Source: Dissulfurispira thermophila
GTDB lineage: Bacteria; Nitrospirota; Thermodesulfovibrionia; Thermodesulfovibrionales; Dissulfurispiraceae
NCBI RefSeq assembly: GCF_014701235.1
Contig: NZ_AP022873.1
Location: forward strand, 1,054,001 to 1,118,000
DNA length: 64,000 nt
Direction of reading: 5' to 3'
The notes beneath the pieces are model-generated. The model had not been told where the DNA came from. It worked only from the letters and a program-made list of their open reading frames with translations, and searched no databases. Both the position numbers and the translations under genes were made by a program. Numbering within the stretch: the first letter of the stretch is position 1; each line of letters opens with the position of its first letter. Of the stretch, positions 9,900 to 52,000 are shown piece by piece.

Positions 9900-12800
9900 A
9901 TGAGCAATTTTATAACAAACAGCCCCACAAAGCACCTTAAAAAAAGGCTACTTGACCTACTTTCAAAGAGTGTTGAGCTTAAATTCCTCGTTGGATTCTT
10001 TTATTTCTCAGGTCTCAAAGAATTATACGAAGGCATTAAAAACAATCCTGATGTAGTCTTAAAAGTCCTCGTTGGTCTTAATGTTGATAGGACTGCCTAC
10101 GGGATTATTGAGTATGGAAGTGATGATAAAAGACTATCAGATGATGAAAGGCTTTATAAATTCTTCGCCTCTATCAAAAACTCCATAAACACAGAGCATT
10201 TTGACCACAGGGAGTTTTATGAACAGGTGAGGTTCTTTATTGGGCTTATAAAGAATAATCGTCTCATCATCAGAAAGACCTATGAGCCAAACCATGCAAA
10301 GCTCTATATCTTTAAACTTCAGCAAGAGCAGATCGGAAGGAACGCACTCTTTATCACAGGAAGCAGTAATCTCACTTCCTCTGGCCTGACCCGCCAGCAT
10401 GAGTTCAATGTTGAGATAAGTGACTATGGATTTGAAGAGGCAGAGGGATATTTTGATAAATTGTGGGAGAGGGCAATACCTGTAACAGAGGATGATGCAG
10501 TCAAAGAGAGGCTCGTTGAGGTATTGGAGAAAGAGACCTTAATTAAGGAGATTACACCCCTTGAGGCATATGCCCTTGTGCTTAAGACATATCTTGATAG
10601 CTTTAAAGGAAAGGCTCTTGGACAGAGACTCATAGATGTCTTAAATGAAAATGGCTACAGGACTTATACATATCAATTAGATGCAGTAAGACAGGCACTC
10701 TCAATCATAGAGCAGAATAATGGTGTAATCATCGCTGATGTTGTTGGCTTGGGAAAGACGGTGATTGCATGTGCAGTTGCATTTGAGCTCAAAAAAAGAG
10801 GGATTGTGATTGCACCACCGGGTCTTATCGGAGATAAGACAGGAAGTGAAGGATGGAAGAGATACCTTGAGGAGTTTCATCTAACAAAACTTGGCTGGGA
10901 AGCCTTCTCACTTGGAGACCTTGAAAAGGTATCAGAATTTGTTGAAAGGGCAAGGGATATAGAGGTTGTTATAGTAGATGAGGCTCATAGATTCAGGAAT
11001 CAGGACACAAGGGATTATGAACTCCTCAAAAATATCTGCAGGGGCAAGACCGTGATGCTTCTTACTGCCACACCCTTTAACAACAGACCTGCTGATATAT
11101 TCTCACTCCTTAAGCTTTTCATAACCCCAAAGAAATCTACAATCACATTAACTGACAACCTTGAATTTAGATTTACAGAATTTAAAGGCATCTTTGACAG
11201 ACTCTCATATATAAAGAGATATGCCAGTTCCTCTGACCGTCAAAAAAGGCAGAGGGCGCTTTCTTATTACGAAGCCCTCTTTGGCAAGGATGTAATAGAT
11301 ATGAGCGATGTAAAGAGCCGTTCTCACTATCTTGCAAGACAGATTAAGGATACTATTGAGCCTGTAACAATAAGGAGGAATCGCCTTGACCTTCAGGAAA
11401 ACCCTCATTATCGCCACGAAATAAAAGAACTCTCAAAGATAGAAGACCCTCTGGAATGGTTCTTTGAATTAACAAAGGAGCAATCAGAGTTTTATGATAG
11501 GGTAATCAACAGTTATTTTGCCCTTCCTGATGAAGGCGGTATGTTCAAGGGAGCAATCTATAAACCCTTTATCTATAAGATCGGGATTGATGCCTTTGAT
11601 GACCTTAAGGGAGATGAGAGCTTCCAGTATATCACCCAGTTTAACCTCTATGACTTTATGAGGAGGTTGCTCGTAAAGAGATTTGAGAGTTCCTTTGGTG
11701 CCTTCAGGCAAAGCCTTATAAACTTCAGGAAGATAACAGGTATTGTCCAGTCCTTTATAGAAAAGACAGGCAGATATATCCTTGACAGACAGCTTCTTGA
11801 AAAGATCTATCACAAAGATATTGACAAGATTGAGGAGGAGCTTAAAGGATATGCAGATAGGATTAAAAATGGTGAGTATCCAAAGAATCACGAGATTTAT
11901 AAGATAGATGAATTTGAAGATGGAGATGAATTTCTTTCTGACATAGAATCAGATAAACAACTCTTTGATGACATTCTGAAAGAGCTTGAGAAACTTAATC
12001 TTACAAATAATGACCCAAAGGCAGAAAGGCTTATTGAGGCTATAGGCATAAGGCTGAAGGCTGAAGAAAAAAGAAAGATTGTAATCTTTTCAGAATATTT
12101 AGACACAGTAAAATACCTCGCTCCTCTCTTACAGAAAAAGTTCAATAACAGGGTCCTTGTTGTGTCAGGAGACCTTACAAAGACAAAGACAAAGGAGATT
12201 TATGCAAACTTTGATGCCTCTTATCCAGAGGATAAACAGGCTGATGATTATGATATTCTCCTTACAACAGACAGGATCTCAGAGGGTTTCAATCTCAATC
12301 GTGCTGGCATGGTTATAAACTATGACATCCCATGGAATCCTGTCCGCGTGATACAGAGGGTTGGAAGGATAAATCGTATAAGCAAAAAGGTCTTTGATAG
12401 CCTCTACATAGTGAATTTCTTTCCAACAGAAAAGGGTGCAGACCTTGTTCATAGCCGTGACATAGCAGCGAATAAGATGTTTCTGATTCACAATGCCCTT
12501 GGTGAGGACTCAAAGATATTTGACATAGATGAAGAACCATCACCATCAGGTCTTTATACTCGCATTAAACAAAATCCCGACTATCTTGAGGCTGAGAGCT
12601 TCTATACAAGGGTATTGAAGGAGTTTGAGCAGATGAAGGCAGATGCCCCTGAGATTATTGAAAGGCTTAAGGACTTTCCACCACGCATAAAGGTGGCAAA
12701 GCAAGCAGATAGAGATGAACTCTTTGTAGTCCTTAAAAAAGGCAGGCTCTATATTTATCATAAAGACTATGCAGATACCGGGGTCCCCAAAAAGTCACAA

Positions 12801-13274
12801 GACTTTTTGGGGTACAGTGGAGAGATAGAGTTAAAGAGCCTTGAGGATATTCTTGACAGGCTTAAACCCAGAGCCTTAAGCGATGAGCCCTTATCCCTGA
12901 GTAACCGATTCTGGGACGAATATGACAAGATAAGGAACTTTCAGGAGACTGTAAGACATCGCCTCACAGAGCAGAGCCTTGAGCAAAAGGCAATAAATAA
13001 CCTGAAGAGCATGCTTTTAATACAGGGCATGGATGAACTTATACCATACAAAGACTTCATAAGGACACTCCTTGAAGACATCTTTGATTATGGCACCCTC
13101 TCTGACTATACACTGAGAAGGATTGCAAATCTCGCTATAAAGGATTTATCAGCTACAGTCAGGGAGATAGAGAGACTAAAGAGAGATCTTGGCGATGATT
13201 ACCTCTACAGAGAAAAGGAGAGGATCAAAGAACTTACAAAAGAGATAATCATTGCCATTGAAAACAGAGTATAG
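9900..13274 (+). CDS. Phospholipase-D-like / SNF2-type helicase fusion
   Basis: A 1124-residue protein. The N-terminus (about 1-200) is a PLD-like domain with one HKD-like half-site: NHAKLYIF (about 131-138) followed by GSSNLTSSG (about 155). It is joined to a RapA/SNF2 helicase with motif I VVGLGKTV (about 279-286), motif II DEAH at 360-363, LTATPFNN, and C-terminal motifs V and VI (DRISEGFNL about 791, QRVGRINR about 818). Such proteins are found in DNA-restriction and anti-phage loci, including DISARM-related ones. Residues 961-972 ([12 protein letters not shown]) are encoded by a 36-bp palindromic repeat, and GIRLKAEEKRK by a GGCTGAAGG tract. The start lies right after a repeat and has no clear ribosome binding site. 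No partner gene overlaps it. Confidence 0.88.
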   Translation: MSNFITNSPTKHLKKRLLDLLSKSVELKFLVGFFYFSGLKELYEGIKNNPDVVLKVLVGLNVDRTAYGIIEYGSDDKRLSDDERLYKFFASIKNSINTEHFDHREFYEQVRFFIGLIKNNRLIIRKTYEPNHAKLYIFKLQQEQIGRNALFITGSSNLTSSGLTRQHEFNVEISDYGFEEAEGYFDKLWERAIPVTEDDAVKERLVEVLEKETLIKEITPLEAYALVLKTYLDSFKGKALGQRLIDVLNENGYRTYTYQLDAVRQALSIIEQNNGVIIADVVGLGKTVIACAVAFELKKRGIVIAPPGLIGDKTGSEGWKRYLEEFHLTKLGWEAFSLGDLEKVSEFVERARDIEVVIVDEAHRFRNQDTRDYELLKNICRGKTVMLLTATPFNNRPADIFSLLKLFITPKKSTITLTDNLEFRFTEFKGIFDRLSYIKRYASSSDRQKRQRALSYYEALFGKDVIDMSDVKSRSHYLARQIKDTIEPVTIRRNRLDLQENPHYRHEIKELSKIEDPLEWFFELTKEQSEFYDRVINSYFALPDEGGMFKGAIYKPFIYKIGIDAFDDLKGDESFQYITQFNLYDFMRRLLVKRFESSFGAFRQSLINFRKITGIVQSFIEKTGRYILDRQLLEKIYHKDIDKIEEELKGYADRIKNGEYPKNHEIYKIDEFEDGDEFLSDIESDKQLFDDILKELEKLNLTNNDPKAERLIEAIGIRLKAEEKRKIVIFSEYLDTVKYLAPLLQKKFNNRVLVVSGDLTKTKTKEIYANFDASYPEDKQADDYDILLTTDRISEGFNLNRAGMVINYDIPWNPVRVIQRVGRINRISKKVFDSLYIVNFFPTEKGADLVHSRDIAANKMFLIHNALGEDSKIFDIDEEPSPSGLYTRIKQNPDYLEAESFYTRVLKEFEQMKADAPEIIERLKDFPPRIKVAKQADRDELFVVLKKGRLYIYHKDYADTGVPKKSQDFLGYSGEIELKSLEDILDRLKPRALSDEPLSLSNRFWDEYDKIRNFQETVRHRLTEQSLEQKAINNLKSMLLIQGMDELIPYKDFIRTLLEDIFDYGTLSDYTLRRIANLAIKDLSATVREIERLKRDLGDDYLYREKERIKELTKEIIIAIENRV
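12780..12815. repeat. 36-bp palindromic element, copy A, in frame in the helicase gene
   Basis: The inverted arms GGGTCCCCAAAAAGTC and GACTTTTTGGGGTAC lie in frame and encode [12 protein letters not shown]. The reverse complement matches copy B in the IS4-type transposase (40654-40689) at 33 of 36 positions, and the forward sequence matches copy C in carB (51574-51609) at 28 of 36. The G-C pair at positions 15/24 of the arms becomes A-T in both other copies, so pairing is kept. Confidence 0.85.
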
Positions 13275-13289
13275 CTATAATAATCTCAA

Positions 13290-13403
13290 ATCCGAGATTT
13301 GAAATTTGAGATGTGAAATTTGAAATCCTGAAATCCGAGATTTGAAATTTGAGATGTGAAATTTGAAATCCTGAAATCTGAGATTTGAAATTTGAGATTT
13401 TAA
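13290..13403. repeat. 43-bp tandem repeat made of TTTGAAAT words
   Basis: A unit of 43 bases starting ATCCGAGATTTGAAATTTG begins at 13290, 13333 and 13376, with the last copy partial. Each unit is made of shorter words (GAAATTTGA, GAGATTTGA). It ends at the start codon of the S23-type gene. The same words follow that gene at 13891-13974 and appear inside its coding sequence near 13688-13722, so gene and repeat seem to belong together. Confidence 0.85.
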
Positions 13404-13404
13404 A

Positions 13405-13893
13405 ATGACCTACAAACGATTTGAAGATCTCCCTGTCTGGCAGGAAGCCATTGAACTGGCAAAACAGGTCTATTCTTTCACAAAAATCCCTGTCTTTAGA
13501 GGTTATCCCAGTCTTAAAGACCAGATAGAGCGGGCATCGCTTTCAGTCTCAAATAACATAGCAGAGGGTTTTGAACGGGGCACCACTAAGGAACTCCTTA
13601 CATTTCTTTATATTGCTCGTGGCTCAGCGGGTGAGGTTCGCTCCGTCCTCTGTTTTATTGAACAACTACCTGAATTTAAAGATTTCAACTCTGAGATTTC
13701 AAGTCTCAAATCCATATCAGAAGGCATCTCCCGTCAACTCAGGGCATGGGCGGATACACTCCAGAACTCTGAAATCCCCGGTCAGCGTTATCTTACAGAG
13801 AAGGGCCGGGAACTTTCTCAAAAAAGAAAAGAGCAGGATGAATTCTTAAAACAACTTAATGAGATTGTCGAAAAGGGGAGGGGGAAACTTTGA
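13405..13893 (+). CDS. Four-helix bundle protein, S23/IVP family
   Basis: A 162-residue protein of the S23 family, first known from intervening sequences in 23S rRNA genes and later found in many loci near restriction systems. Typical features: YKRFEDLPVWQEAIELAKQV at the N-terminus, LKDQIERASLSVSNNIAEGF (about 38-57), and LLTFLYIARGSAGEVRS (about 64-80). The residues PEFKDFNSEISSLKS are encoded by the same TTTGAAAT-type words that flank the gene. Function is unknown; the fold is probably a pentameric helical bundle that binds nucleic acid. No rRNA is nearby. Confidence 0.85.
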   Translation: MTYKRFEDLPVWQEAIELAKQVYSFTKIPVFRGYPSLKDQIERASLSVSNNIAEGFERGTTKELLTFLYIARGSAGEVRSVLCFIEQLPEFKDFNSEISSLKSISEGISRQLRAWADTLQNSEIPGQRYLTEKGRELSQKRKEQDEFLKQLNEIVEKGRGKL

Positions 13894-13974
13894 AATCTCA
13901 AATTTGAAATTTGAAATTTGAAATTTGAAATCTGAAATCTGAAATCTGAGATTTGAAACCTGGATCTGAAATCT
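13891..13974. repeat. TTTGAAATCTGAAAT word tract after the S23-type gene
   Basis: Repeated words of seven bases (TTTGAAA, TCTGAAA) run from the stop codon of the S23-type gene into the remnant of a RelE-like gene. It continues the repeat found before that gene. No gene or terminator is visible in it. Confidence 0.8.
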
Positions 13975-14106
13975 GAAATACCCCATGAGATTCTCAAACA
14001 AATATACGCTGCTCTGGAAGTGTTATCAGGAGGGCTAAAAGGAGATATTAAGAGACTTACAAATTTTTCTCCAGAATACAGATTAAGGGTTGTAGATTAC
14101 AGGTAG
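13975..14106 (+). pseudogene. RelE/ParE-type toxin remnant
   Basis: The frame reads PHEILKQIYAALEVL, then GGLKGDIKRLT and EYRLRVVDYR, followed by a stop at 14104-14106. This matches the middle and end of the RelE/ParE toxin fold (GDIKxL...YRLRVGDYR). The start and the last strand are missing. It is a decayed toxin gene lying between a repeat tract and an intact toxin-antitoxin pair. Confidence 0.65.
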
Positions 14107-14158
14107 ATTTTATAGCTTTACTTCAACCTTCAGTTCTGTGTTAAGGTGTGATATTATA

Positions 14159-14175
14159 GATATACATGATATATC
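14159..14175. promoter_or_regulatory. Palindromic operator before the antitoxin gene
   Basis: GATATACATGATATATC is a near-perfect palindrome ending 12 bases before the antitoxin ATG, next to a strong CAGGAGGTG ribosome binding site. A TATTATAGATAT stretch just upstream may hold the -10 box. Ribbon-helix-helix antitoxins usually bind such palindromes to repress their own operon; the assignment here is inference from position and symmetry. Confidence 0.5.
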
Positions 14176-14187
14176 AGGAGGTGAACC

Positions 14188-14436
14188 ATGCCAAATCAGA
14201 TGCTTATAAGAATAGAGGAGAAATCAAAAGAAAGGCTTACAAAACTCGCAAGGCTTGAAGGTAAGACAACGAGCCAGTTAATCAGAGAACTCATTGACAG
14301 GTATCTTGAAGAGCATGATATGGGTCCGTATGTTGATAATCTATGGGAAAGGATTGGTAAGAAAATGAGGGCAAAGGGATTTAGACAATCGGATATTAAA
14401 AAGGCGATTGAGGAGTCCCGTCGCCGTCATCCCTAA
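14188..14436 (+). CDS. Ribbon-helix-helix antitoxin
   Basis: An 82-residue protein. Residues 1-45 form a CopG-type ribbon-helix-helix: a strand (MLIRIEEKSKERL), helix A (LTKLARLEGK) and helix B (TSQLIRELIDRYLEEH). The charged C-terminus likely wraps the toxin. A strong ribosome binding site precedes it, and the PIN toxin follows after 35 bases. It probably neutralises the toxin and represses the operon through the palindrome upstream. Because the toxin gene overlaps the Eco57I-type gene, it may control the whole restriction cassette. Confidence 0.85.
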   Translation: MPNQMLIRIEEKSKERLTKLARLEGKTTSQLIRELIDRYLEEHDMGPYVDNLWERIGKKMRAKGFRQSDIKKAIEESRRRHP

Positions 14437-14471
14437 TATTCCGTTCTCCTATAAGAATCTGGTTAATATTT

Positions 14472-14873
14472 ATGAGGGTAGTTATAGATACAAACATCTT
14501 TGTCTCCTCTTTTTTTGGCGGAAATCCTAAGAAGATTATAGATTTATGGAAAAGGGGGGATATAACTCTATGCCTTTCCTCTGATATTCTTGAGGAATAT
14601 ATAGATGTTTTGATAAGACTCGGGATGAAGGACCAAAAAGAACTTTATGAACTATTATCATTTTTTTCATCAGGCTTTAATACCCTTTTTACGAAAAAGA
14701 CACCTTCTATCAGGATTGTTAAAAATGACCCTGATGATGACAAATTTGTAGAATGCGCCCTTGCCCTAAAGGCTGACCATATCATTACAGGAGATAAAGA
14801 ACTCCTATCAATAAGACGATACAAAAATATTCAGATACTTACCCCACAGGATTTTTTAAGGATATTTAGATGA
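14472..14873 (+). CDS. PIN-domain toxin (COG1569 type)
   Basis: A 133-residue PIN nuclease, expected to cut RNA with a metal ion. The acidic residues lie in VVIDTNIFVSSFFGG (D6), a glutamate in the SSDILEEYIDVL helix, the NDPDDDKFVECALAL motif and the final TGDKELL. Length and the closing ILTPQDFLRI are typical of the PIN family that pairs with small ribbon-helix-helix proteins. The stop overlaps the start of the Eco57I-type gene as ATGA, so toxin and methylase are translationally coupled. That is unusual and suggests the pair guards the cassette. Confidence 0.88.
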   Translation: MRVVIDTNIFVSSFFGGNPKKIIDLWKRGDITLCLSSDILEEYIDVLIRLGMKDQKELYELLSFFSSGFNTLFTKKTPSIRIVKNDPDDDKFVECALALKADHIITGDKELLSIRRYKNIQILTPQDFLRIFR

Positions 14874-17800
14874 CATCAGAGATATTAAAAGACATAATCA
14901 ACAACTTCTCCCCTGAGGAATTCATCCACTTCTTCAGGCAAAAGAACCGCTCTTTTAAGCCTTTTAATGAACCAGCCCCTCAATACAATGATGAAGACTT
15001 CACAGACTGCCTATTTCTTGGCGAGATACCCTTTAATGCCACTGACAGGCTCATAATCTATGTCTTCAAGGTCAACAGAGACCTCACCGAGCGTTCAGGC
15101 AAAAAGGCACAGTATGAAAAGGGCAAGAAGATACTCAAAGAGAGTTATGCAGACGCTGGGATTTTTATCTTTTATGATTCACAGGGTAGATTCAGATTTT
15201 CATTGATTCACACAGACTATGCTGGTACAAGAAGGCAATGGAGCCACTTCAAACGCTATACCTATTTTGTAAGCAAAGACCAGACAAACAAAACATTTCT
15301 CAAACAGGTTGAAGAATGTAATTTTTTAAGTCTTGAAGAAATAAAACAAGCCTTCTCCGTTGAGCCAGTAACAAAGCAGTTTTATAACGAAATTCAGAAC
15401 TGGTATTTCTGGGCAATGGATAAAATAACTTCTCCCGATGACTACAAATACAGCCAAAATGAAGAAAAAGACAGAGAAATTAGAAACGCAACAAATCTGA
15501 TAAGGCTGATCACAAGAATAATCTTTATCTGGTTCATAAAAGAAAAAGAGCTTATAAACGAAGACCTTTTTGATAAGACAAAACTTAAGAATATCGTTAA
15601 AGACTTTGGCGAAGGCAACAACTACTATAACGCAATACTTCAAAACCTCTTCTTTGCCTCATTAAACCAGAAAGTTGGCGAGAGAAAGTTTGCCAAAGAA
15701 GACGGATATCCAGTAAATAAAAGCGAATACGGAGTAAAAACACTATTTCGTTATAGAGATAAATTCAACATAGGCGAAGAAGAAGTGCTTAAACTTTTCA
15801 AAGACATTCCCTTTCTCAACGGAGGGCTTTTTGACTGTCTTGACAAAGAAGATGAAACTGGAAAAGTGATATACATAGACGGATTTTCAAGAAATCCAGA
15901 CAAACAGGCAAAAATTCCAGACTTCCTGTTCTTCCAGAAAGAAGAGACCAATATTGACCTTTCTCAATACGGACTTGGTAAAAACAAGCCCGTAAGAGGA
16001 CTTCTTGAGATTTTAAAAAGTTACAACTTTACCATAGATGAATCAACCCCAGTTGACCAAGAAGTCGCTTTAGACCCAGAGCTTCTTGGTAAAGTTTTTG
16101 AAAACTTGCTTGCCTGCTACAATCCAGAAACATCAACCACAGCCAGAAAATCCACAGGCTCTTACTACACCCCCAGAGAAATTGTTGACTACATGGTTGA
16201 TCAAAGTCTAAAAGAATACTTAAAAAACTCCTTACCCTCTGATAGGGGGGAATTAGAGGAAGAATTGGATGAAAAGATTACCCTTCTTCTTTCCTACACA
16301 GATGAAGCACCAGAGATTACAGAAGAAGAAAAAGAAGAAATCATAAGGGCTATTGCAAATATAAAAATACTTGATCCTGCCTGTGGAAGCGGCGCATTCC
16401 CAATGGGCATACTACACAAACTCTTGCTAATCCTTCAAAAAATTGATCCAGAAAACAAATATCTATACAAAATTCAGAAAGAAAAACACAGAGAGATAGA
16501 ACACATTTTAAAATCAGATGACAAAGATGAGTTAGAAGAGCTTTTAAATGAGTTAGAAGAAACCTTTGACGAAAAACTAAACTATCCTGACTATGCCAGA
16601 AAAAAATATCTCATAGAAAACTGCATCTACGGCGTGGACATACAGCCCATAGCCATACAAATAAGCAAACTCAGATTTTTCATATCCCTCATACTTGACC
16701 AAAAAGTTAACAAGACAAAAGACAACTTTGGTATAAGACCGCTACCTAACTTAGAGACGAAATTCATATCTGCAAATACCTTAATAGGGTTAGAGAGACC
16801 AAAACAACTTTCTTTTCGCAATCCAAAGATAGATGAAAAAGAAAAAGAATTAAAAGAACTCAGGCACAGATACTTTTCTGCAAAAACAAGAACGCAAAAA
16901 TTGAGATTACAGCAAAAAGACAAAAAAATCAGAGAAGAAATATCAAAACTGTTAGTCAACGACGGCTGGGATATAGAAACTGCAAAAAAGATAGCCAACT
17001 TTGACTTTTTTGACCAGAACGCATCAGCAGACTGGTTTGACCCTGAATGGATGTTTGGGATAAATGATGGATATGACATTGTGATAGGCAATCCGCCGTA
17101 TATTAAGGAATATACTAATCGACAGGCATTTGATGGTCTTAGAAGCAGCCCTTATTATCAGGGCAAAATGGATATATGGTATTTCTTTGTTTGTGTTGGA
17201 TTAGACCTATTAACGAACAGTGGAATATTAACTTTTATCGCTCAAAACAACTGGATTACTAATTTCGGTGCTAAAAAGATGAGAAACAAAGTAATTATAG
17301 ATAGTATTATAAAAAAATTAATTGACTTTGGCCCATATTTTATTTTTGAAAGTTCTGGGACTCAAACAATGATTATGGTATTTAAGAAAGACACAATAAC
17401 TGATAATTATTCATTTGAGTATCTAAGAATAAGAAGTAATAACCCCGCTTTTAACGATGTCCTTGATATACTCAGAAAAAACAACAATCCAAATATTGGG
17501 TATTTAGAACCAATCATTAAAAGAAGTGAATGCATTAATAAACCTTTAAACTTTTCGGATACAGATATAGAACAAATTTTGAAGAAAATAAAAACGAATG
17601 GACCATTTAATCTATTAGAGGAAGAAATCGCACAGGGCATTGTGTGTCCTCAAGATTTCTTAAATAAAAAGAATGCCCAAAAGTTAGGCAACAAGTTTCC
17701 GGTGGGAACGGGAATCTTTATAATATCTGACGAAGAGAAGCGAAGTATGAATTTAACATCAGAAGAACTAAAGATTATTAAGCCTTACTATACCACCGAA

Positions 17801-18403: not shown

Positions 18404-18406
18404 TTG

Positions 18407-22008: not shown

Positions 22009-22099
22009 AAAAAGAGCGTGCCCTATGGGTGCATCACCCTCTGGCTTAGCCAACCTATGGAAGGGAACACCAAAGGAACCCACAGCGGACTTACCGCTC
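22007..22099 (-). ncRNA. Candidate 93-nt structured small RNA
   Basis: On the minus strand an extended -10 box (TGGTATAAT, plus positions 22106-22114) puts transcription start at about 22099. The RNA opens with GAGCG and closes with CGCTC (22014-22018) followed by seven T, so the ends pair and the closing stem could serve as a terminator. Inside are several hairpins: AGCGG/CCGCT with a UAAGU loop, GGG..CCC, TGGC-TAA-GCCA and GGGTG-ATG-CACCC. No reading frame explains it. It lacks the GGAA apical domain of signal recognition particle RNA and does not match a riboswitch I know. Confidence 0.5.
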
Positions 22100-22105
22100 A
22101 TAATA

Positions 22106-32889: not shown

Positions 32890-32938
32890 CCCCTATGGGT
32901 TGAACCTTTGGTTTGCCCATAGGGGTTTTATTTTTTTT
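32890..32938 (+). terminator. Intrinsic terminator, copy 1 of a duplicated hairpin
   Basis: CCCCTATGGG (32890-32899) pairs with CCCATAGGGG (32916-32925), with an inner AACC/GGTT hairpin, followed by TTTTATTTTTTTT. A nearly identical sequence stands at 33452-33499. Each copy is followed by another hairpin, a GGAGG ribosome binding site and a tiny ORF. Confidence 0.85.
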
Positions 32939-33451: not shown

Positions 33452-33499
33452 CCCCTATGGGTTGAACCTTTGGTTTACCCATAAGGGTTTTTTTATTTT
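33452..33499 (+). terminator. Intrinsic terminator, copy 2 of the duplicated hairpin
   Basis: CCCCTATGGG (33452-33461) and CCCATAAGGG (33478-33487) with the same inner AACC/GGTT hairpin and a following TTTTTTTATTTT. It is nearly identical to 32890-32938. It lies upstream of the 63-residue gene's promoter and ahead of a second tiny ORF. Confidence 0.85.
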
Positions 33500-37138: not shown

Positions 37139-37150
37139 TCTGTCAAGATG

Positions 37151-39394: not shown

Positions 39395-39523
39395 GTCTTT
39401 ACCCTCCTACTAAGAATTTGTGTTATAACACATCTGTCCAAAATAATTTTTTAGATAAGGAAGCCCCCGATGGGGTAAAATTGTTTTGACACAAAAAAAA
39501 CAAACCCTGAAAGGAGGCTTCCT

Positions 39524-40732
39524 ATGAATAAGTTTAGCAGTATTTTTGGACAGATTCTACAGATATTTTCAAAGAGTGAGTTTTATGAGGCGGTGAGAGA
39601 GACGAAGGCTGATAAAGGGGTAAAGGGATTTAGTTGTTGGGGGCAATTTGTAGCAATGTTATTTTGCCAATTAGGGCAGGCTCATTCATTAAGGGAGATA
39701 ACAGGAGGGCTTGCAACCTGTATGGGCAAGCTGAGGCATTTAGGGATTGAAGAGGCTCCAAAACGCTCCACCCTTTCCTATGCCAACAATCACAGGCCCT
39801 GGCAAATGTATGAGAGGGTATTTTATACATTGCTTGATAAATGCAAAGGTCTTGCACAGGGAAAGAAGAAGTTCAGGTTTAAGAACAAGCTATTCAGTCT
39901 TGATTCGACAATAATAGAACTCTGTGCAAGCCTGTTTAACTGGGCAAAATTCAGGCAGACTAAAGGAGCGGTGAAACTCCATCTCTTATTAGACCATGAG
40001 GGGTATCTTCCAGTCTTTGCCAATATAACAGAGGGTAGAGTTCATGAAGTAAATATAGCGAGGAGACTCTCTTTTCCGAAAGGTTCAATAATTGTTATTG
40101 ATAGGGGATATGTAGACTACGGGCTTTTTGCGAAGTGGACAGAGGAAGGGATTTATTTTGTAACAAGACAGAAGGACAATGCCAGATTCAGGGTTATTAG
40201 AGACAATCCTATACCTGAAAGGGGCAAGATACTCAGGGACTCAGTGATAGAATTTGAGGGATTTTATGCGAAAGAGGATTTTCCCTATCAATTAAGGAGA
40301 ATAGAGGTGTGGGATGACACAAAGGGGGAGGTTATAGTCCTTCTTACAAATCATCTTGAATTCGGACCGACGACATTAGCTGCCATATACAAAGACAGGT
40401 GGCAGATAGAGGTATTCTTTAAGACAATAAAGCAGAATCTGAAGATAAAGACATTTGTGGGGACAACCCCAAATGCAGTGATGACACAGATTTGGACAGC
40501 ATTGATAGCGATATTAGCCCTTAAGTATCTGAAGTTTCGTTCTACCTTTGGATGGTCATTGAGCAATCTTGTTGCTTTATTGAGGTATAATCTCTTTACA
40601 TACAGGGATTTATGGGAATGGCTCAATAAACCCTTTGAGACCTTACCTATTCTGTACCCCAAAAAATCTTGCGATTTTTTGGGGACCCCTATTGTGCCTG
40701 ATGTAGAGCAACTTCCTTTAAGGGGTATTTAA
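39524..40732 (+). CDS. IS4-family transposase (DUF4372 N-terminus)
   Basis: A 402-residue transposase. The N-terminal DUF4372 region (SCWGQFVAMLFCQLGQAHSL) is followed by the DDE core: D in FSLDSTIIELC, D in IVIDRGYVDYGLF and the Y-R-E-K signature in YKDRWQIEVFFKTIKQNLK. Length is complete and the AAAGGAGG ribosome binding site is good. Near the C-terminus YPKKSCDFLGTP is encoded by copy B of the 36-bp palindromic element, so the repeat lies inside a mobile gene. Confidence 0.93.
   Translation: MNKFSSIFGQILQIFSKSEFYEAVRETKADKGVKGFSCWGQFVAMLFCQLGQAHSLREITGGLATCMGKLRHLGIEEAPKRSTLSYANNHRPWQMYERVFYTLLDKCKGLAQGKKKFRFKNKLFSLDSTIIELCASLFNWAKFRQTKGAVKLHLLLDHEGYLPVFANITEGRVHEVNIARRLSFPKGSIIVIDRGYVDYGLFAKWTEEGIYFVTRQKDNARFRVIRDNPIPERGKILRDSVIEFEGFYAKEDFPYQLRRIEVWDDTKGEVIVLLTNHLEFGPTTLAAIYKDRWQIEVFFKTIKQNLKIKTFVGTTPNAVMTQIWTALIAILALKYLKFRSTFGWSLSNLVALLRYNLFTYRDLWEWLNKPFETLPILYPKKSCDFLGTPIVPDVEQLPLRGI
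40654..40689. repeat. 36-bp palindromic element, copy B, in frame in the IS4 transposase gene
   Basis: GTACCCCAAAAAATCTTG followed by CGATTTTTTGGGGACCCC, in the opposite orientation to copy A in the helicase gene and identical to its reverse complement at 33 of 36 bases. It encodes YPKKSCDFLGTP near the C-terminus of the transposase without breaking the frame. Confidence 0.85.
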
Positions 40733-40844
40733 GTTGGACAGCATTTTAATGGATAGTGAAGAAAGAGGGGTAACCTGATTTTGAAAATATGGATTTACCC
40801 GTCCAAAATCCTTATTTTACAAGGGTGAGATTTGTGAGTTTAGA

Positions 40845-41336
40845 TTATTTTGGACAGCAGTGACTATGAATATAATCCAACACATCTCTGTACTCAGACT
40901 TTTTAAACCAATCACTAAGCACATAAACATACTCTACTTTAATGCCGAGAGGGGATACCAGTTTTAAATACTGTTTACGCTTGAAATCACATGTTTGCAA
41001 TTTTTCATCTACCGAGCCAGCAACTTGCTGGTATTTGACTTCAATAATAAATAAAGTTTCTCGCACAATTACCAGCAGAGCATCGTCGGGCAATAATTTT
41101 TTTGAGATTATATTATTCCATTTAATACCCTTTTCTTCCAAAAAACGATAAAAATCATGTTTTCTGAAACATCTTGCAACGAGTCGTCCCTCAAAAAATA
41201 GACCAAGACCTGCTTTGTGAGGGACCTTCTTCAATTCATAGCCAGGTATTGTCCTAATAAGTTCCTGAAAATCAACTTTTCGTTCGAAATGCAAACCTGT
41301 GAGGGTATTACCTCCCCCAAAACCTCCCGCTTTCAT
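40845..41336 (-). CDS. Type II restriction endonuclease (PD-(D/E)XK), 3' end replaced by IS
   Basis: A 163-residue protein with a PD-(D/E)XK active site: P83-D84 in LLPDDALLVI and E99-x-K101 in LFIIEVKYQQ. The methylase gene directly upstream (four-base overlap) is its partner. The last residues, CCPK and stop, are encoded by the inverted repeat of the IS4 element, so the native C-terminus was cut off. The DNA on the far side of the IS would have given a similarly short tail, so activity may survive. Confidence 0.7.
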   Translation of the reverse strand: MKAGGFGGGNTLTGLHFERKVDFQELIRTIPGYELKKVPHKAGLGLFFEGRLVARCFRKHDFYRFLEEKGIKWNNIISKKLLPDDALLVIVRETLFIIEVKYQQVAGSVDEKLQTCDFKRKQYLKLVSPLGIKVEYVYVLSDWFKKSEYRDVLDYIHSHCCPK

Positions 41337-42416: not shown

Positions 42417-42637
42417 ATTTTGTGAAACCCTATTTTTATCTTTAATTAGTGATTTAGATTTTTTTTAGTTTTTCTTGACATCATATGCCTTCAAACAAAG
42501 CAGAATAATATTAAACAATTTACAAAAAAAATTGCAAAAATAATATATTTTCTGGTAACCTAACCATCAGCAAATGGTTGATAAATGTTGAATTATCAAG
42601 GTAAGAGGCAAAAATAGAAGAATTGGAGGATTGGGTT

Positions 42638-43162: not shown

Positions 43163-43184
43163 AGAGTGTATGAGGGACTAAAAT

Positions 43185-43754: not shown

Positions 43755-43786
43755 TCTTGTGAATGATTGAGTTGTAGTGATTTTTT

Positions 43787-43815
43787 TTGACAATTTAAAT
43801 GATATATGGTTTAAT
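43787..43815 (+). promoter_or_regulatory. Sigma-70-type promoter of the pyrimidine operon
   Basis: TTGACA (43787-43792) and TTTAAT (43810-43815) are separated by exactly 17 bases. This is the best housekeeping promoter in the window and lies directly in front of the PyrR-binding leader. Confidence 0.75.
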
Positions 43816-43820
43816 AGTAT

Positions 43821-43924
43821 TACCTTTAAGAATAGCCCTGTGAGGCTAAGAAGGTAAGGAGACATTGTGAAATATAAGTACAAGATAATATGCCTTCCTC
43901 TAAAAACAGGGGAAGGCTTTTTTA
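43821..43924 (+). promoter_or_regulatory. PyrR-binding RNA attenuator
   Basis: The leader has the PyrR-binding hairpin: TACCTT (43821-43826) pairs with AAGGTA (43851-43856) and TAGCC with GGCTA, around the conserved loop CTGTGAGG. The core AGCCCTGTGAGGCT closely fits the Bacillus consensus (AGTCC-x-G-x-GAGGCT). A terminator follows: GCCTTCCTCT (43892-43901) with AGGGGAAGGC (43908-43917) and six T. UMP-bound PyrR would hold the first hairpin and allow termination. A second hairpin (GGGAC/GTCCC, about 43933-43946) follows. Confidence 0.8.
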
Positions 43925-43981
43925 TGAGCAAAAGAGGGACTTGTGTCCCCCTTTTGAAATCCTTTTTGAAGAAGATCAACT

Positions 43982-44515
43982 ATGATTAAAGAACTTTTAA
44001 ATAAAAAGGATATAGAAAGGATTATTTCGAGGATTGCGCATGAAATAATCGAAAAAAATAAGGGTACAGAAGGTATCTGTATTGTGGGAATACAACGGGG
44101 TGGTGTTTATCTTGCAAAAAGGCTTGCAAACAAAATAAAGGGCATCGAGAATGTAGATATTACAGTAGGCTCTCTTGATATATCTTTTTACAGGGATGAT
44201 ATAGGAATAAGAAAAGAACAGTCTATTGTAAGAAAGACCGATATCCCATGTGATATAACTGATAAAAAAATAATCCTTGTTGATGATGTCCTTTTTACTG
44301 GACGCTCAATAAGGGCTGCTATGGATGCATTGATGGATTTTGGCAGGCCTGCGCAGATACAGCTTGCAGTATTGATTGACAGAGGTCATAGGGAATTGCC
44401 TATAAGGGCAGATTATGTTGGGAAGAATATTCCCACATCAATATTGGAAAATATAGAGGTTCAGTTTGAAGAAGAGGGACTTGAGGATAAGGTAATATTA
44501 ATGCAAAATGTATGA
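43982..44515 (+). CDS. pyrR: PyrR: pyrimidine operon attenuator / uracil phosphoribosyltransferase
   Basis: A 177-residue phosphoribosyltransferase that binds the pyr leader RNA and, weakly, makes UMP from uracil. The PRPP loop [20 protein letters not shown] (about 98-117), [13 protein letters not shown] (about 38-50) and DITFYRDD-like [10 protein letters not shown] are family features. It is encoded just downstream of its own target leader, the usual autoregulated order. The stop overlaps the pyrB start. Confidence 0.96.
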
Positions 44516-45426
44516 AAGATCTTGTTGGTATAAAGGAATTATCTAAAGACAAAATTAAGTTGATACTCGATACAGCCTCGTCATTTAAGGATGTTCTAAA
44601 AAGAGACATTAAAAAGGTTCCTGCCCTGAGAGGCAAGACTGTTGTAAACCTATTTTTTGAGCCATCAACAAGGACCAAGACATCTTTTGAGCTTGCTGAA
44701 AAGAGGCTGAGTATGGATGTGCTTAATTTCTCTGTGCCAACAAGCAGTGTTGTTAAAGGAGAAAGCCTTTTTGATACTATAAAGACAATAGAGGCATATG
44801 GTGTGGATTTTATTGTGATACGGCATTCTTCAAGTGGAGCACCTCATTTTATTGCAAGGAATGTAGATGCATCTGTTATTAATGCTGGGGATGGTATAAA
44901 TGAACACCCAACACAGGCACTCCTTGATGCCTTTAGCATTCTCGAAAGGAAAGGCAGCCTTAAAGGACTTAATATTGCGATAGTTGGTGATATACTTCAC
45001 AGCAGGGTGGCAAAATCTAATATATATCTTCTCTCGAAATTTGGTGCAAACATCAGACTCATAGGTCCACCAACACTTGTCCCTGAAATGACAGACTATC
45101 ATATTGATGTCTTTTATGAAATGGATGAAGGTCTCAAAGATGCAGATGTTATTATGATGCTAAGGATCCAGATGGAAAGGCAGGGAAAGGGTTTCTTTCC
45201 ATCTACTTTGGAATATTTCAAAAACTGGGGACTCGACATGAGAAGACTCAAACTTGCTAAAAAGGACGCAATAGTCATGCATCCGGGGCCGATGAATAGA
45301 GGCATTGAAATCAGTTCTGATGTGGCAGACTCAGAGCAGTCTATAATCCTCGAACAGGTGACAAACGGACTCGCTGTTAGAATGGCTGTCATGTATCTAC
45401 TTAAGAAGGAAAGTGAAAATGCATAA
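44512..45426 (+). CDS. pyrB: Aspartate carbamoyltransferase catalytic subunit
   Basis: Forms carbamoyl aspartate in de novo pyrimidine synthesis. The carbamoyl phosphate site [19 protein letters not shown] (about 47-65), [12 protein letters not shown] (about 133-144) and the C-terminal [11 protein letters not shown] (aspartate site) are intact. The 304-residue length is normal. No regulatory subunit gene (pyrI) is present, in keeping with PyrR control. It overlaps pyrR by four bases and pyrC by 14 or, from the ATG, 8 bases. Confidence 0.97.
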
Positions 45427-46729
45427 CAGCATACTTATAAAAAACGGACATATCATAGACCCTTCTCAAGGAATTGACAGTATTGGAGATATACTGATTG
45501 AAGATAGGAAGATAAAAGAGGTCAGGCTTCAGCCTAATAAAAGACAGGGTGAGGTTAAGGTTAAGGGACAGATAATTAACGCTGATGGACTATATGTCTT
45601 CCCGGGCATTGTTGATATGCATGCCCATTTAAGAGAGCCAGGCTTTGAATACAAAGAAACAATAAAGACAGGCACAATGGCTGCTCTGAAAGGTGGCATT
45701 ACATCTGTCTGCTGTATGCCAAATACAAATCCTGTCAATGATAACAGGACTGTTACAGAATTTATCTTGAAAAAGGCATATGCTGAAGGTTCATGTTATG
45801 TATATCCAATAGGTGCTATTACAAAAGGACAAAAAGGAGAAGAACTTGCTGAGATGGGCTTGATGTATGAGGCAGGCTGTATTGCTTTTTCTGATGATGG
45901 GAGGCCTGTTGTAAGTACTCTGCTAATGAGAAGGGCTTTGGAATACTCAAAGGCATTGAATGTGCCTATTATTTCCCATTGTGAGGACATAAGTCTTTCA
46001 GATAGTGGCACAATGAATGAGGGAAGTCTGTCAACAAAGATGGGGCTAAAGGGGATTACCTATGCTGCTGAAGATATAATGGTTGCAAGGGATATTATCC
46101 TCTCGGAGCTCACAGGGGGCAAGCTTCATATTGCCCATGTCTCGACAGAGGGGTCTGTAAGGCTTATAAGAGAAGCAAAGAAAAGAGGCATAAATGTAAC
46201 CGCAGAAACTTGCCCTCATTATTTCACAATTACAGAGGATGCTGTAGCGAATTACAATACCAATGCAAAGGTCAATCCACCATTGAGAACACAAAGAGAT
46301 ATAGAGGCAATAAAGGAAGGGTTAAAGGATGGCACAATAGATGTTATAGCCACAGACCATGCTCCACATCATGGAGACGAAAAGCTTCAGGAGTTTGATA
46401 AGGCTCCTTCAGGCATATCAGGTTTTGAAACAGCATTTTCTTTATCTTTAAAACTTGTTCACGATGGTGTTTTATCTATTTCACAGCTTATAGAAAAAAT
46501 GTCATATACCCCTGCAAGGATATTGGGCATAAATGCAGGAACACTGAAAGTTGGCAGTCAGGCTGATCTTACAATAGTAGATATGAATAAGGAGTTTAAA
46601 GTTGAGGCAACAAAATTCCTTTCAAAAGGTAAAAATACACCATTTGAGGGATGGATTTTAAAGGGTACGTCTGTGATGACAATATGCAGGGGAAAGGTTT
46701 TTGATTGCCAAAGTTTTATTGGAGGATAA
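45413..46729 (+). CDS. pyrC: Dihydroorotase
   Basis: Cyclises carbamoyl aspartate to dihydroorotate. Zinc ligands are seen in [11 protein letters not shown] (about 67-77), ISHCED (about 182-187), HIAHVSTEG and the catalytic ATDHAPH (about 310-316). The 438-residue length is slightly above the family norm. Between IKEVRLQPN and IINADGL there is a [11 protein letters not shown] stretch encoded by a GACAGG-AGGTTAAGGTTAAGGG tract related to the hairpin at 761-796. GTG at 45413 or ATG at 45419 may be the start. Confidence 0.96.
45525..45572. repeat. GACAGG/AGGTTAAGGTTAAGG tract inside pyrC
   Basis: In-frame words GACAGGGTGAGGTTAAGG and TTAAGGGACAG encode [11 protein letters not shown]. The 761-803 hairpin near the start of the window is built from the same words (GACAGGCTAAGGTTAAGG). 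Such sharing between a gap and a coding sequence is unlikely by chance. Confidence 0.55.
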
Positions 46730-47866
46730 ATGAGTAAGGCATTGCTTGTATTGGCTGATGGGACATACTTTGAGGGCAAAGGCTTTGGGGCTGATGGAGA
46801 ATCTATAGGTGAGGTTGTCTTTAATACCTCAATGACAGGGTATCAAGAGATACTCACTGATCCATCATACAAGGGGCAGATAGTTACAATGACATACACA
46901 CAGATAGGTAATTATGGCATAAATATGACAGATGTGGAATCTCTCAATAAGCCAAAGGTCGAGGGTTTTATCATTAAGGAGTATTTTGACTTTCCCAGTA
47001 ACTGGCGATCTCAAATGACTCTATCGCAGTATCTTAAGGATAATAATATAGTTGCCATCGAGGGGATAGATACAAGGGCATTAACGAGACATTTAAGAAA
47101 TAGCGGTGTTCAGATGGGAATTATTTCTACTGTTGATTCCGGTCCAGAGAGCCTTTTTGAAAAGGTGAGGGCTCATCCCGGAATATCAACCCTTGACCTT
47201 GTGAAAGAGGTGACAACTAAAGAGGCTTACACATGGGGGGAAGGGTGCTTTACCATTTCACCTCTTCGCCGCTTCACCTCTTCACCACTTTTAATCTCTG
47301 ATACTAAAAAAGTGGTTGTCTATGACTTTGGAGTAAAGTTTAATATACTGAGAAACCTTGTTGATGCTGGTTTTAATGTGAGTGTTGTCCCCGCATATAC
47401 ACCAGCAGAGGCTGTTTTAGAGATGAAACCTGATGGAGTCCTCTTAAGCAACGGGCCCGGTGATCCTGAGACAGTTACCTATGGCATAGAGAATGTAAAA
47501 AAATTGATAGGTAAAAAGCCTATCTTTGGAATATGTCTCGGTCATCAGATACTCGGTCTTGCGATGGGCGGGAGGACATATAAATTAAAATTTGGACATC
47601 ATGGAGGGAATCATCCTGTAAAGGATTTAAAGACAGGAAGGGTTGAAATAACAGCACAGAATCATAACTATTGCGTTGATATTAATAGCCTAAAAGGGCA
47701 GGTTAGATTGACCCACCAGAATCTTTTTGATGGATCAGAAGAAGGCATGGAGCATGTGGAATACCCTGTATTTTCTGTCCAGCACCATCCAGAGGCAGGC
47801 CCGGGTCCAAATGATTCAACGCATTTGTTTAAAAGGTTTAGGGAGATGATGGAGGAAAGATGTTAA
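46730..47866 (+). CDS. carA: Carbamoyl phosphate synthetase small subunit
   Basis: Glutaminase subunit that feeds ammonia to CarB. The N-terminal domain (1-165) includes GEVVFNTSMTGYQEILTDPS. The glutamine amidotransferase domain has nucleophile C269 (GICLGHQILGLA) and the SVQHHPEAGPG histidine and glutamate. The 378-residue length is near normal. Residues about 171-190 (GCFTISPLRRFTSSPLLISD), between AYTWGE and KKVVVYDFGVK, look inserted and are encoded by a TTCACCTCTTCACC tract. The stop overlaps the flavin reductase start by seven bases. Confidence 0.96.
   Translation: MSKALLVLADGTYFEGKGFGADGESIGEVVFNTSMTGYQEILTDPSYKGQIVTMTYTQIGNYGINMTDVESLNKPKVEGFIIKEYFDFPSNWRSQMTLSQYLKDNNIVAIEGIDTRALTRHLRNSGVQMGIISTVDSGPESLFEKVRAHPGISTLDLVKEVTTKEAYTWGEGCFTISPLRRFTSSPLLISDTKKVVVYDFGVKFNILRNLVDAGFNVSVVPAYTPAEAVLEMKPDGVLLSNGPGDPETVTYGIENVKKLIGKKPIFGICLGHQILGLAMGGRTYKLKFGHHGGNHPVKDLKTGRVEITAQNHNYCVDINSLKGQVRLTHQNLFDGSEEGMEHVEYPVFSVQHHPEAGPGPNDSTHLFKRFREMMEERC
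47243..47296. repeat. TTCACCTCTTCACC word tract inside carA
   Basis: The tract reads ATTTCACCTCTTCGCCGC then TTCACCTCTTCACCAC, in frame at the junction of the two CarA domains. Its reverse complement (GTGAAGAGGTGAAG) matches words after carB (52360-52396) and before the GGDEF gene (53691-53717). Confidence 0.65.
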
Positions 47867-48387
47867 AGCAAATTAAATCCGATATTTATCACCTTATGCA
47901 CCCAAAGATGGCTTTTTTTCTAACAAGCATAAGCAAAGATGGTAAGCCAAATGTGATGGCATGTGCGTGGGCAACACCTGTGAGCGAAGAGCCTCCCATT
48001 ATGGTGGTCTGTGTGTCAAAAGAGAGTTACACCGCAGAGTTAATTAAACAGACAAAAGAGTTTGCTATCAACATTCCTACCAAAAATCTTTTGAAACCTC
48101 TCATGATATGTGGTAAGACATCAGGCAGAAATACAGACAAATTTCTTAAAGCAAAACTTAAGCAAATTAAATCTAACTCATTGAAAACACCTCTAATTGA
48201 TGGATGTATCGGCTATATTGAGTGTAAGCTCTTCAAGGTTGTTGATGCTGGGGAATGTTATGCCTTTTTAGGCAATGTTGTTCATGCCAGTGCTGATAAT
48301 AGATTTTTTAAAAAGAATGCATGGACAGAAGATTCTGAAATACCACTTCATCTAAGCGGTGCAAAGATGGTGTATTTTAAGGAATGA
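47860..48387 (+). CDS. Flavin reductase-like FMN-binding protein
   Basis: A 175-residue protein of the flavin reductase domain family (PMAFFLTSISKDGKPNVMAC, then ATPVSEEPPIMVVCVSKES and FAINIPTKNLL). Members bind FMN and use NAD(P)H to supply reduced flavin, or act as flavoproteins of unknown role. It is translationally coupled to carA and lies inside the pyrimidine operon, which is not usual; a link with a flavin-dependent step such as dihydroorotate oxidation is possible but not shown. Confidence 0.85.
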   Translation: MLKQIKSDIYHLMHPKMAFFLTSISKDGKPNVMACAWATPVSEEPPIMVVCVSKESYTAELIKQTKEFAINIPTKNLLKPLMICGKTSGRNTDKFLKAKLKQIKSNSLKTPLIDGCIGYIECKLFKVVDAGECYAFLGNVVHASADNRFFKKNAWTEDSEIPLHLSGAKMVYFKE

Positions 48388-48401
48388 GCCATAAATGATT
48401 T

Positions 48402-49004
48402 ATGGGCAATAAGACTTATCATATAGACATTAAGGACAATGTTTTGACATTCAGCACAAGCTCTTTTAAGGCTGAGAAGGGCAGTGTGCTTCACAGCGGC
48501 ATTTACAACCGTGAGCTTGCATCAAGCCTTGCTTCTGGTGCATTGGTAATGCTGCTGGGATTCTTTTTTGCTTCAAAGTTTAAAACAACCGCTGTTTTCT
48601 TTATTGTTACATTATTGTTTTTCATTATATCTTTTGTTATCTTTAGGACTTATATTTTTTTAGAGCCTATCCTCTACATTATTATTGATAAGACAAAAGG
48701 AGATATTGCCATTGTAATTAGAAGGATTTTCAGAAAAAGGAGCATAACATCTTCACTATCTGAACTCAACGACATTAGACAGGACTATCTGTCAGTGACT
48801 CCTGAAAACCCTGACGGAATAAGGCTTGTGGAACAGGTTGCACTTCAGCACGGCACAGTGATACCGGGTTTTGGGCAAACATCCGAGTTTTATACAGTGG
48901 AGTTGGAATTTAAAGATGCAAAGAGGTTTATCATATTTTCATCTGAAGATCATTCAATAGCTGAAGACATAGCGACAAAATTCAAGAATTTTATAAAGGG
49001 GTAA
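48402..49004 (+). CDS. Membrane protein of unknown function between carA and carB
   Basis: A 200-residue protein with two adjacent membrane segments ([18 protein letters not shown], about 45-62, and [20 protein letters not shown], about 68-87). A soluble C-terminus of strands ([38 protein letters not shown]) is reminiscent of a PH-like domain. No named family is recognised. It starts 14 bases after the flavin reductase gene and ends two bases before carB, so it is part of the operon. Confidence 0.75.
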
Positions 49005-49006
49005 AA

Positions 49007-52000
49007 ATGCCAAAGAGAACAGATATTAGAAAGATACTTTTAATAGGCTCTGGACCTATTATAATAGGGCAGGCATGTGAATTTGATTATTCTGGAACAC
49101 AGGCGTGTAAAGCATTGCGTGAGGAGGGTTATAAAATAGTGCTTGTGAATTCAAATCCAGCAACTATAATGACAGACCCTGAAATAGCAGATGCAACCTA
49201 TATTGAGCCACTGTCATCCGAGATCCTTGAATTAATCATTAAAAAGGAAAGACCTGATGCTATCTTACCAACAATGGGTGGACAGACTGCGTTGAATCTT
49301 GCTGTGGAATTATCAGAATCAGGGGTGCTCGATAGGTATTCAGTTGAACTAATAGGTGCAAAATTGCCTGCTATTAAAAAGGCAGAAGATAGAGAGCTTT
49401 TTAAAGAAGCCATGAAAAAAATAGGACTTGATGTTCCAAAGAGTGCTGCAATTACTAATATGGGAGACGGACTTGATATTATTGAGCATATAGGATTCCC
49501 AGCGATTTTGAGGCCTGCCTTTACATTAGGCGGCACCGGAGGCGGAATTGCCTACAATATTGAGGAGTACCGTGAACTTCTTGAAAAGGGACTCAAGTTA
49601 AGCCCTGTCCATCAGGTGCTTGTTGAAGAGTCTGCCCTCGGATGGAAGGAATATGAATTAGAAGTTATGAGAGACAGAAATGACAATGTTGTCATAATAT
49701 GTTCGATAGAGAACTTTGATCCAATGGGAGTTCATACGGGTGACTCTATTACAGTGGCTCCAGCCCAAACCCTTACTGACAAGGAATACCAGAGGATGCG
49801 TGATGCTGCTATTGCTGTTATCAGGGAGATAGGTGTTGATACAGGTGGTTCTAATATACAGTTTGCAATAAATCCAAAAGACGGCAGGATGATAGTTATT
49901 GAGATGAATCCTCGTGTATCAAGAAGCTCTGCCCTTGCAAGCAAGGCGACAGGATTTCCTATAGCAAAGATTGCAGCAAAGCTTGCTGTTGGTTATACGC
50001 TTGATGAAATAAGAAATGATATAACAAAAGAGACACCGGCATCTTTTGAGCCAACAATAGATTATGTGGTAACAAAGATTCCAAGGTTTACATTTGAAAA
50101 ATTTCCAGAGGCAGATACAACACTTACTACACAGATGAAATCTGTGGGAGAAGTAATGTCTATAGGCAGGACATTCAAGGAATCTTTGCAGAAGGCATTG
50201 AGAAGCCTTGAAATAGGCTCATCAGGTTTTGAAGATATAGAGACCGATATAAATGAAATAAAATCAAGGTTAAAGACCCCAAATGCCGAACGCATCTGGT
50301 ATGTAGCACAGGCTATGAGGCAGGGGATGACTGTTAATGAGATTTATGAACTCACATGGATAGACCCATGGTTTTTGAATAATATAAAGCAGATTGTAGA
50401 GATGGAAGAGATGTTGAAGTCTGAAGGCTTAAGGCTTAAAGATAAAGAAGTCCTGAGCAAAGCAAAAGAATATGGATTTTCCGACAAGAGGATCGCAGAA
50501 TTGACAGGTAAAACAGAAGCTGACATTAGAAAATTAAGGATCGAGTCTGGGATAAATCCTGTGTATAAGCTTGTTGATACTTGTGCTGCAGAATTTGAGG
50601 CATATACCCCGTATCTTTATTCAACTTATGAAAAACCCTTTTATAGCGTTAAAGTGTCAAAGTGTCAAGGTGTCAAAGACTCTGATACAGTTAAGGTTGA
50701 GTGCGAATCCAATCCAACTGATCGCAAAAAGGTAATAATTCTCGGCTCGGGTCCTAACAGGATAGGGCAGGGTATAGAGTTTGATTACTGCTGTGTTCAT
50801 GCAGTCTTTGCCCTGAAAGAGCTTGGTTATGAGACTATAATGGTTAATTGCAATCCCGAAACTGTCAGCACAGACTATGATACAGCAGACAGACTCTATT
50901 TCGAACCCCTGACAATAGAAGATGTCTTAAACATTGTAGAAAAGGAGAAACCAGAAGGTATAATAGTGCAGTTTGGAGGACAAACACCATTGAAATTAGC
51001 TGTGCCGCTTGAAGGAGAAGGGGTAAAAATTCTTGGGACATCTCCTGACTCTATTGATAGGGCTGAAGATAGAAAGAGATTTAAAGAACTGCTTCATAAA
51101 TTGGATTTAAAACAACCTGAAAGCGGGACAGCAATGTCATGTGAAGAGGCCATAGCTGTTGCAGATAGCATTGGATATCCTGTGATGGTAAGACCATCTT
51201 ATGTCCTTGGTGGAAGGGCAATGGAGATAGTCTATAATGAAAACTCTTTAACAGATTATATGAAAAGAGCAGTTAAGGCATCGCCTGAGCATCCTATTCT
51301 CATCGATAAATATCTCGAAGATGCAATAGAAGTAGATGTTGATGCAATATCAGATGGAGTGGATGTTATTATCGGCGGCGTCATGGAGCACATAGAAGAG
51401 GCAGGGATACATTCAGGAGACTCTGCATGCTCTATTCCTCCATATTCATTGCCTCCTGATGTTGTGGCTGAGATAAAACGACAGACAAAGGCACTGGCAA
51501 AGGAACTCAATGTCATTGGATTGATGAATGTGCAGTTTGCAGTGAAAAAGGCTGAAGGCTCAAGGCTGAAGGCGGAGTCCCCAAAAAATCCTGAGATTTT
51601 TTTGGGTAAAGATGCTGAAGATTATGAAATATATATACTTGAGGTTAATCCAAGGGCATCAAGAACAATCCCATATGTAAGTAAGGCTACAGGTGTTCCT
51701 CTTGCCAAGGTTGCTGCAAAGGTTATGCTTGGTAAGACATTAAAAGAACTTGGACTTTCTAAAGAAATAGAAATAAATCATGTGGCCGTCAAAGAAGCAG
51801 TTTTCCCTTTTGATAGATTTCCCGGAGTTGATGTTATCCTTGGTCCTGAAATGAAGTCAACAGGAGAGGTAATGGGTATAGATAAAAACTTCGGGCTTGC
51901 CTATGCAAAGGCGCAAGCTGCAAGCAAAAATAGGATACCAACATCAGGAAAGATATTTATAAGTGTAAAAGACAAGGATAAGCCTCAGACTTTTGATATA

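Follow-up and report, generated by a model that had tools for sequence, protein, structure and literature searches.

The window, that is, the whole stretch of 64,000 nucleotides analysed here, belongs to the single 2.37-Mb contig that makes up the Dissulfurispira thermophila genome. Three of its genes, encoding a helicase, an insertion sequence (IS) transposase and a carbamoyl-phosphate synthase subunit, contain copies of one short palindrome, named A, B and C in the following list.

9900-13274, plus strand: SNF2-type helicase gene with a PLD-like domain, host of copy A (Pfam Helicase_C, SNF2-rel_dom, PLDc_2)
12780-12815, plus strand: copy A of the palindrome (covariance model, E 1.6e-10)
39429-40863, plus strand: IS4-type insertion sequence carrying copy B (alignment to a second IS copy)
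39524-40732, plus strand: IS transposase ORF, 402 aa including the inserted peptide (Pfam DDE_Tnp_1 and DUF4372)
40646-40651, plus strand: CCTATT, left direct repeat of 6 bp (present once in the other IS copy)
40652-40687, minus strand: copy B, the 36-bp element as bounded by the empty IS copy (covariance-model match 40654-40689)
40688-40693, plus strand: CCTATT, right direct repeat of 6 bp (IS-pair alignment)
49007-52372, plus strand: carB, carbamoyl-phosphate synthase large subunit, host of copy C (Pfam; PDB 1bxr)
51548-51619, plus strand: insertion of 24 codons in carB (residues 848-871), in which copy C follows a GGCTGAAG-type repeat (absent in 30/30 homologues)
51574-51609, plus strand: copy C of the palindrome (covariance model, E 6.2e-9)

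The three 36-mers lie where the original prediction had placed them (12780-12815, 40654-40689 and 51574-51609), and counting the letters gives the same agreement between them as it had reported, with 33/36 equal bases for copy A against the reversed copy B and 28/36 for A against C. The arm pair 15/24 is indeed G-C in A and A-T in B and C, with pairing kept, and the encoded peptides are alike. Copy A is read in forward frame 0, copy B on the reverse strand and copy C in forward frame 2; the peptides resemble each other despite these differences, as the frames of the palindrome code for similar peptides. By analogy with the boundaries of copy B, those of copy A would be 12782-12817. The pattern GTCCCCAAAAAN{6,16}TTTTTGGGG, for which copy C is too diverged, matches A and B in the window compared with 0.00 matches expected from 100 shuffles, and gives 16 strand-hits at 14 places in the genome compared with 0 for the pattern read backwards. 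In the window the covariance model, run with filters off, recovers the same three places, and the match after them has an E value of 1.8.

The decisive case for mobility is copy B. A second copy of its IS, located at 219918-221310 of the genome (transposase search match 220013-221170), is without the palindrome. When the two are aligned, 1391 of 1435 columns are identical; the rest are a single gap of 42 bases and 2 substitutions, the latter among 1393 aligned bases. The 42-bp insertion is made up of the 36-bp palindrome together with a 6-bp direct repeat: CCTATT stands on both sides of the palindrome in the filled copy and occurs once in the empty copy. Counting the conserved outer GG as part of the element would change the split from 36 + 6 to 38 + 4. 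Since the pair differs by only 2 substitutions and one clean 42-bp insertion, the element is mobile and has been so recently. The empty copy might also have arisen by exact deletion; six more distant IS homologues were aligned, five of which are unlike or cut short at the peptide site, and the sixth, in G019 (70 %), is clearly without the peptide, which makes insertion the more likely course. The second IS copy is flanked on both sides by TTTAAAAT; the window copy (ends 39429 and 40863) is without such a repeat.

A search for further copies across the genome, proposed together with the original prediction, revealed dozens more. The covariance model was built from 15 copies, and with the best 150 of 2626 candidates scored it gave 108 strand-matches at E<=1, which merged over both strands into 66 places, 56 of them at E<0.01. 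Not counted among them are the places 199772 and 1928448 and the outer nested match 2283625-2283702. The number is a lower bound, given the limit on candidates scored and three arm matches, at 876260, 1676124 and 1852443, that lie outside the table. The original observation is confirmed and understates the case. Forty-five of the 66 sites are at or in an ORF of >=100 aa (43 inside, two upstream of the start), and the ORFs of 38 sites have a Pfam domain (Pfam was run on 40 ORFs). Internal to 26 Pfam-supported genes are 29 sites, the hosts being the IS transposase, helicase, carB, pheT, mnmA, infB, mfd, glnE, nuoG, tig, cca and others, while nine Pfam-supported sites are near an ORF start whose true position is uncertain. 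All six classes of orientation and phase occur among the 29 internal sites (forward 8, 1, 10; reverse 3, 2, 5). That the palindrome invades coding sequence without breaking it, as had been proposed, is borne out, except that genes are not a preferred location and are better described as tolerated, 43 of 66 sites lying inside such ORFs vs 87 % of random 36-bp window sites. Two copies each are found in a cbiG-type gene, comEC and a histidine kinase gene, and in a CobQ-like gene one copy lies in frame within the loop of an older copy. At 2049163 and 2050539 of the genome (L191) neighbouring M16 peptidase paralogues have the palindrome at residues 30-41 in both, with upstream flanks alike, which suggests that the insertion preceded the gene duplication.

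The element consists of two inverted 12-bp arms that enclose a loop of roughly 4 bases, with a total length of 36 bp (GGTCCCCAAAAAATC-loop-GATTTTTTGGGGTACAG). In an alignment whose rows hold both strands of some copies, 94.0 % of the stem cells are paired and 39 are altered on both sides compared with 11.4 in shuffles (0/500 shuffles); the pairs with two-sided change (5 vs 3.5; 73/500 shuffles) and the pair types (13 vs 11.5; 72/500 shuffles) are not unusual. The consensus has 0 stop codons in six frames; the same is true of 0.8 % of composition shuffles, of 1.2 % of 36-mers drawn at random from the window and of 7.0 % of palindromes with shuffled arms. The net insertion is 42 nt, that is 14 codons, in the five cleanest cases (IS, helicase, nuoG, pheT compared with three relatives, and pilD compared with G003), 39 nt in glnE and tig and 51 nt in mfd; it is variable in mnmA (27-63 nt), cca (18-21 nt) and carB (9-72 nt) as well as in cdaA, where it is C-terminal. 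Selection on survivors explains lengths in multiples of three in any case, and that the element is tuned to an insertion length of 42 bp is a conjecture.

The host genes were compared with their homologues by joining 14 host segments as a query and searching 15 genomes, this one included; relatives' DNA was used for 12 genes from G001-G003 (same genus) and G005 (same family). For infB no orthologue was among the matches listed, which places it outside this comparison. In the genes compared the relatives are mostly without the peptide. It is missing in 3/3 relatives for both nuoG and glnE, in 4/4 for mnmA (a variable loop), in 3/4 for pheT, where G005 has other residues, and in 3/4 for mfd, where G005 has a palindrome of its own in a different frame. 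Furthermore, it is missing in 2/3 relatives for tig, one being partial, in 2/2 for the C-terminal site of cdaA and in 2/2 for cca, with other residues present. The sites in carB and pilD are variable loops in which some relatives carry other sequence; absence is clean in G001 only for carB and in G003 and both G005 rows for pilD. The copies in recJ and ubiA are N-terminal.

The original prediction had also proposed that the peptide would be absent in homologues of the helicase and CarB, and this is the case for both. The helicase peptide begins at residue 961, and of the three homologues aligned the two closest (G058 and G048) have a clean 14-residue gap, the more distant L370 (G055) having unlike residues and a gap. 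None of the 30 CarB homologues carries the peptide, and the 24 inserted residues are absent in all of them, two having 4-5 other residues (31 of 81 available CarB sequences were aligned). A structural model of CarB (mean pLDDT 84.7) predicts a low-confidence loop between two strands, with residues 852-868 below 50. Sequence alignment with solved MnmA, CarB and PheT leaves the peptide unaligned, and with the solved structure of trigger factor it shows a shorter gap. A second CarB insertion at 50636-50698 (residues 544-564) is absent in most homologues aligned; at a similar place the L017 CarB has a different, repeat-like insertion of 39 residues.

The nearest CarB sequences come from one Thermodesulfovibrionia MAG and one Nitrospirae MAG, and from this we infer that the genome belongs to Nitrospirota. 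Apart from this genome, matches to the palindrome at E<=0.01 occur in 26 of 59 relatives. With the best <=115 candidates scored per genome and both strands counted, the relatives richest in strand-matches are G037 (at least 100), G005 (at least 77), G029 (at least 65), G009 (at least 52) and G007 (at least 42). Of 295 genomes of the phylum, 23 have matches at E<=1e-4 (this one is among them): 21 belong to the same order, one to the class and one lies elsewhere in the phylum. The element is found almost only in this order, which by the CarB placement would be one of Nitrospirota. Among 50 genomes reached via CarB loci, a set with five labelled Nitrospirae, Nitrospirota or Thermodesulfovibrionia and with no positive-control genome, 0 matched at E<=1e-4.

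An RNA hairpin or conserved binding site that selection keeps for a function of its own, such as a terminator or a nucleoid or segregation signal, would not be a mobile element. The two-sided stem changes are what such a site would show, and in G037 and G029 the palindrome is part of larger intergenic repeats. However, its places are not conserved, the relatives being mostly without it at the same gene positions, and close relatives differ in copies (at least 80 strand-matches in this genome vs at least 16, 3 and 3 in others of the genus). Rfam, run on 11 element loci and the window, has no family at the palindrome. Together with the filled and empty IS this makes a selected site the least probable of the explanations considered, one we scarcely credit.

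Could the palindrome instead be a repetitive extragenic palindrome (REP), moved by a REP-associated tyrosine (Y1) transposase (RAYT)? Size and hairpin fit REPs, both being palindromes of 20-40 bp in many copies, and Y1 transposases are encoded in 40 of 60 genomes, with one gene in this genome. Copy number, however, does not track the Y1 genes: G005, a 96 % complete draft, has at least 77 strand-matches and no Y1 match. Among 30 fetched Y1 loci of about 3 kb each, some of them from copy-rich genomes, 0 have a copy at E<=1. Transposases of this class are not known to leave a 6-bp direct repeat. REPs seldom overlap coding regions, according to passages of PMC12306157, whereas 43 of the 66 sites here are genic. 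With this location and no linked RAYT gene seen, such an origin is not supported and appears quite improbable. An automatic REP count for Thermodesulfovibrio yellowstonii is contained in the same source (PMC12306157, in part).

Some spread occurs by hitch-hiking with larger repeats, since 10 of the 66 sites in this genome, and most copies seen in G037 and G029, lie inside such repeats. In G029 the 13 re-found copies (of 20 fetched) belong to a larger repeat that has an outer stem of its own, their frames having 60-139 codons, and the copies fetched from G037 are mostly within another larger repeat; in G005, 15 of 19 re-found copies (of 20 fetched) are in stop-to-stop frames of >=200 codons. 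If hitch-hiking or gene conversion with GGCTGAAG arrays and intergenic composites were the only way of spreading, the palindrome would have no mobility of its own. The similar composite flanks of the carB, cbiG and pilD copies and of 10 other sites agree with this, as do the composite repeats of G037 and G029. On the other hand, the IS insertion is a bare 36 bp plus 6 bp, and the insertions in nuoG, pheT and the helicase gene are no larger than that, which leaves hitch-hiking highly improbable as the sole route. Empty forms of the larger repeats were sought in G000 and G029 by exact patterns whose gaps were kept below the filled spacing; there were 0 matches, a result that is neutral here.

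The best explanation, to which we assign a probability of roughly 85 %, is a very short non-autonomous mobile element with inverted arms. Its mobility is evident from the dispersal, the empty sites of relatives, one filled/empty pair with a 6-bp repeat, nested and adjacent copies (two adjoin in one G005 locus and three in one G037 locus) and the unequal expansion in relatives. A transposase acting in trans would recognise the arms and insert the element elsewhere, making a staggered cut in the target so that about 6 bp are duplicated. Genic copies would survive owing to the stop-free consensus and a net insertion of a multiple of three, with about 14 residues added to a tolerant loop, and copies that break frame or fold would presumably be lost by selection. 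The parent IS would have ends resembling GGTCCCCAAAAA and CTGTACCCC. Reading by eye 55 arm matches in four genomes revealed no such parent and no IS-sized pair of arms, and the enzyme moving the element was not found in them. Over older copies, target duplication is weakly supported: for 47 copies besides the IS pair, the offset of that pair gives p=0.028 for 4 bases, 0.13 for 5 and 0.92 for 6, another offset giving 0.0073, so that the signal is not specific. Exact shared 4-6-mers at the copy edges are at permutation level (48 of 66 copies kept), and the one significant summed edge score (0.002) is at an uninterpretable offset. The weakness of the signal might reflect that most copies are old.

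The original prediction had likened the palindrome to the Rickettsia palindromic elements (RPEs), an interpretation that is supported for behaviour and not for membership. Shared with the elements of Rickettsia and Wolbachia are palindromic repeats in many unrelated protein genes with the frame kept, here probably in loops, and PheT is among the RPE hosts, as here (PMC3767692, in part). For a solvent-exposed position of the peptide, as expected of RPEs, the comparison rests on CarB, the one host modelled, in which the insertion is predicted as a low-confidence loop. RPE-type palindromes are described from Rickettsia and Wolbachia in the portions available of PMC3767692 and PMC10969869, with a length of 100-150 bp given in the former. 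In contrast, the element reported here has 36 bp, belongs to another phylum and offers a filled/empty pair in one genome with a 6-bp direct repeat. It may accordingly be regarded as an RPE analogue, likened by behaviour and set apart by length and lineage. MITEs are likewise non-autonomous with terminal inverted repeats, which are present here; their target-site duplication is seen clearly (6 bp) at one recent site and weakly over old copies. Unlike MITEs the element has no interior, its arms meeting almost directly. A parent transposon was not recognised by eye among the arm matches of four genomes. No description of the element was found in open PMC papers. RPE-like behaviour is seen here in a different phylum, with a recent insertion beside an empty site in the same genome. 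This opens to testing the questions of what enzyme is responsible for the movement of these elements, by what means the reading frame is maintained on insertion, and whether core proteins regularly gain new peptides from short mobile DNA. Tentatively, and with more doubt than confidence, one may think of a transposon adapted to protein-coding DNA, stop-free in six frames and in frame by default, its length and target duplication adding up to 14 codons, through which core proteins across the order would continually gain lineage-specific peptides by the action of a transposase.

Other repeats and RNA features were noted in the window. GGCTGAAGGCTGAAG-type repeats are located at 51546-51571, 9835-9860 and 12041-12066, carB and the helicase gene containing one each, and in pilD the palindrome copy is within a repeat of this type. 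Heptad-type tandem repeats (TGAAATC/ATTTGAA) occupy 13294-13404 and 13891-13979. Rfam assigns a DUF3800-V RNA to 22009-22105 on the minus strand and a PyrR binding site to 43819-43926. Two terminator-like hairpins, at 32890-32937 and 33452-33499, are 92 % identical and 562 bp apart.
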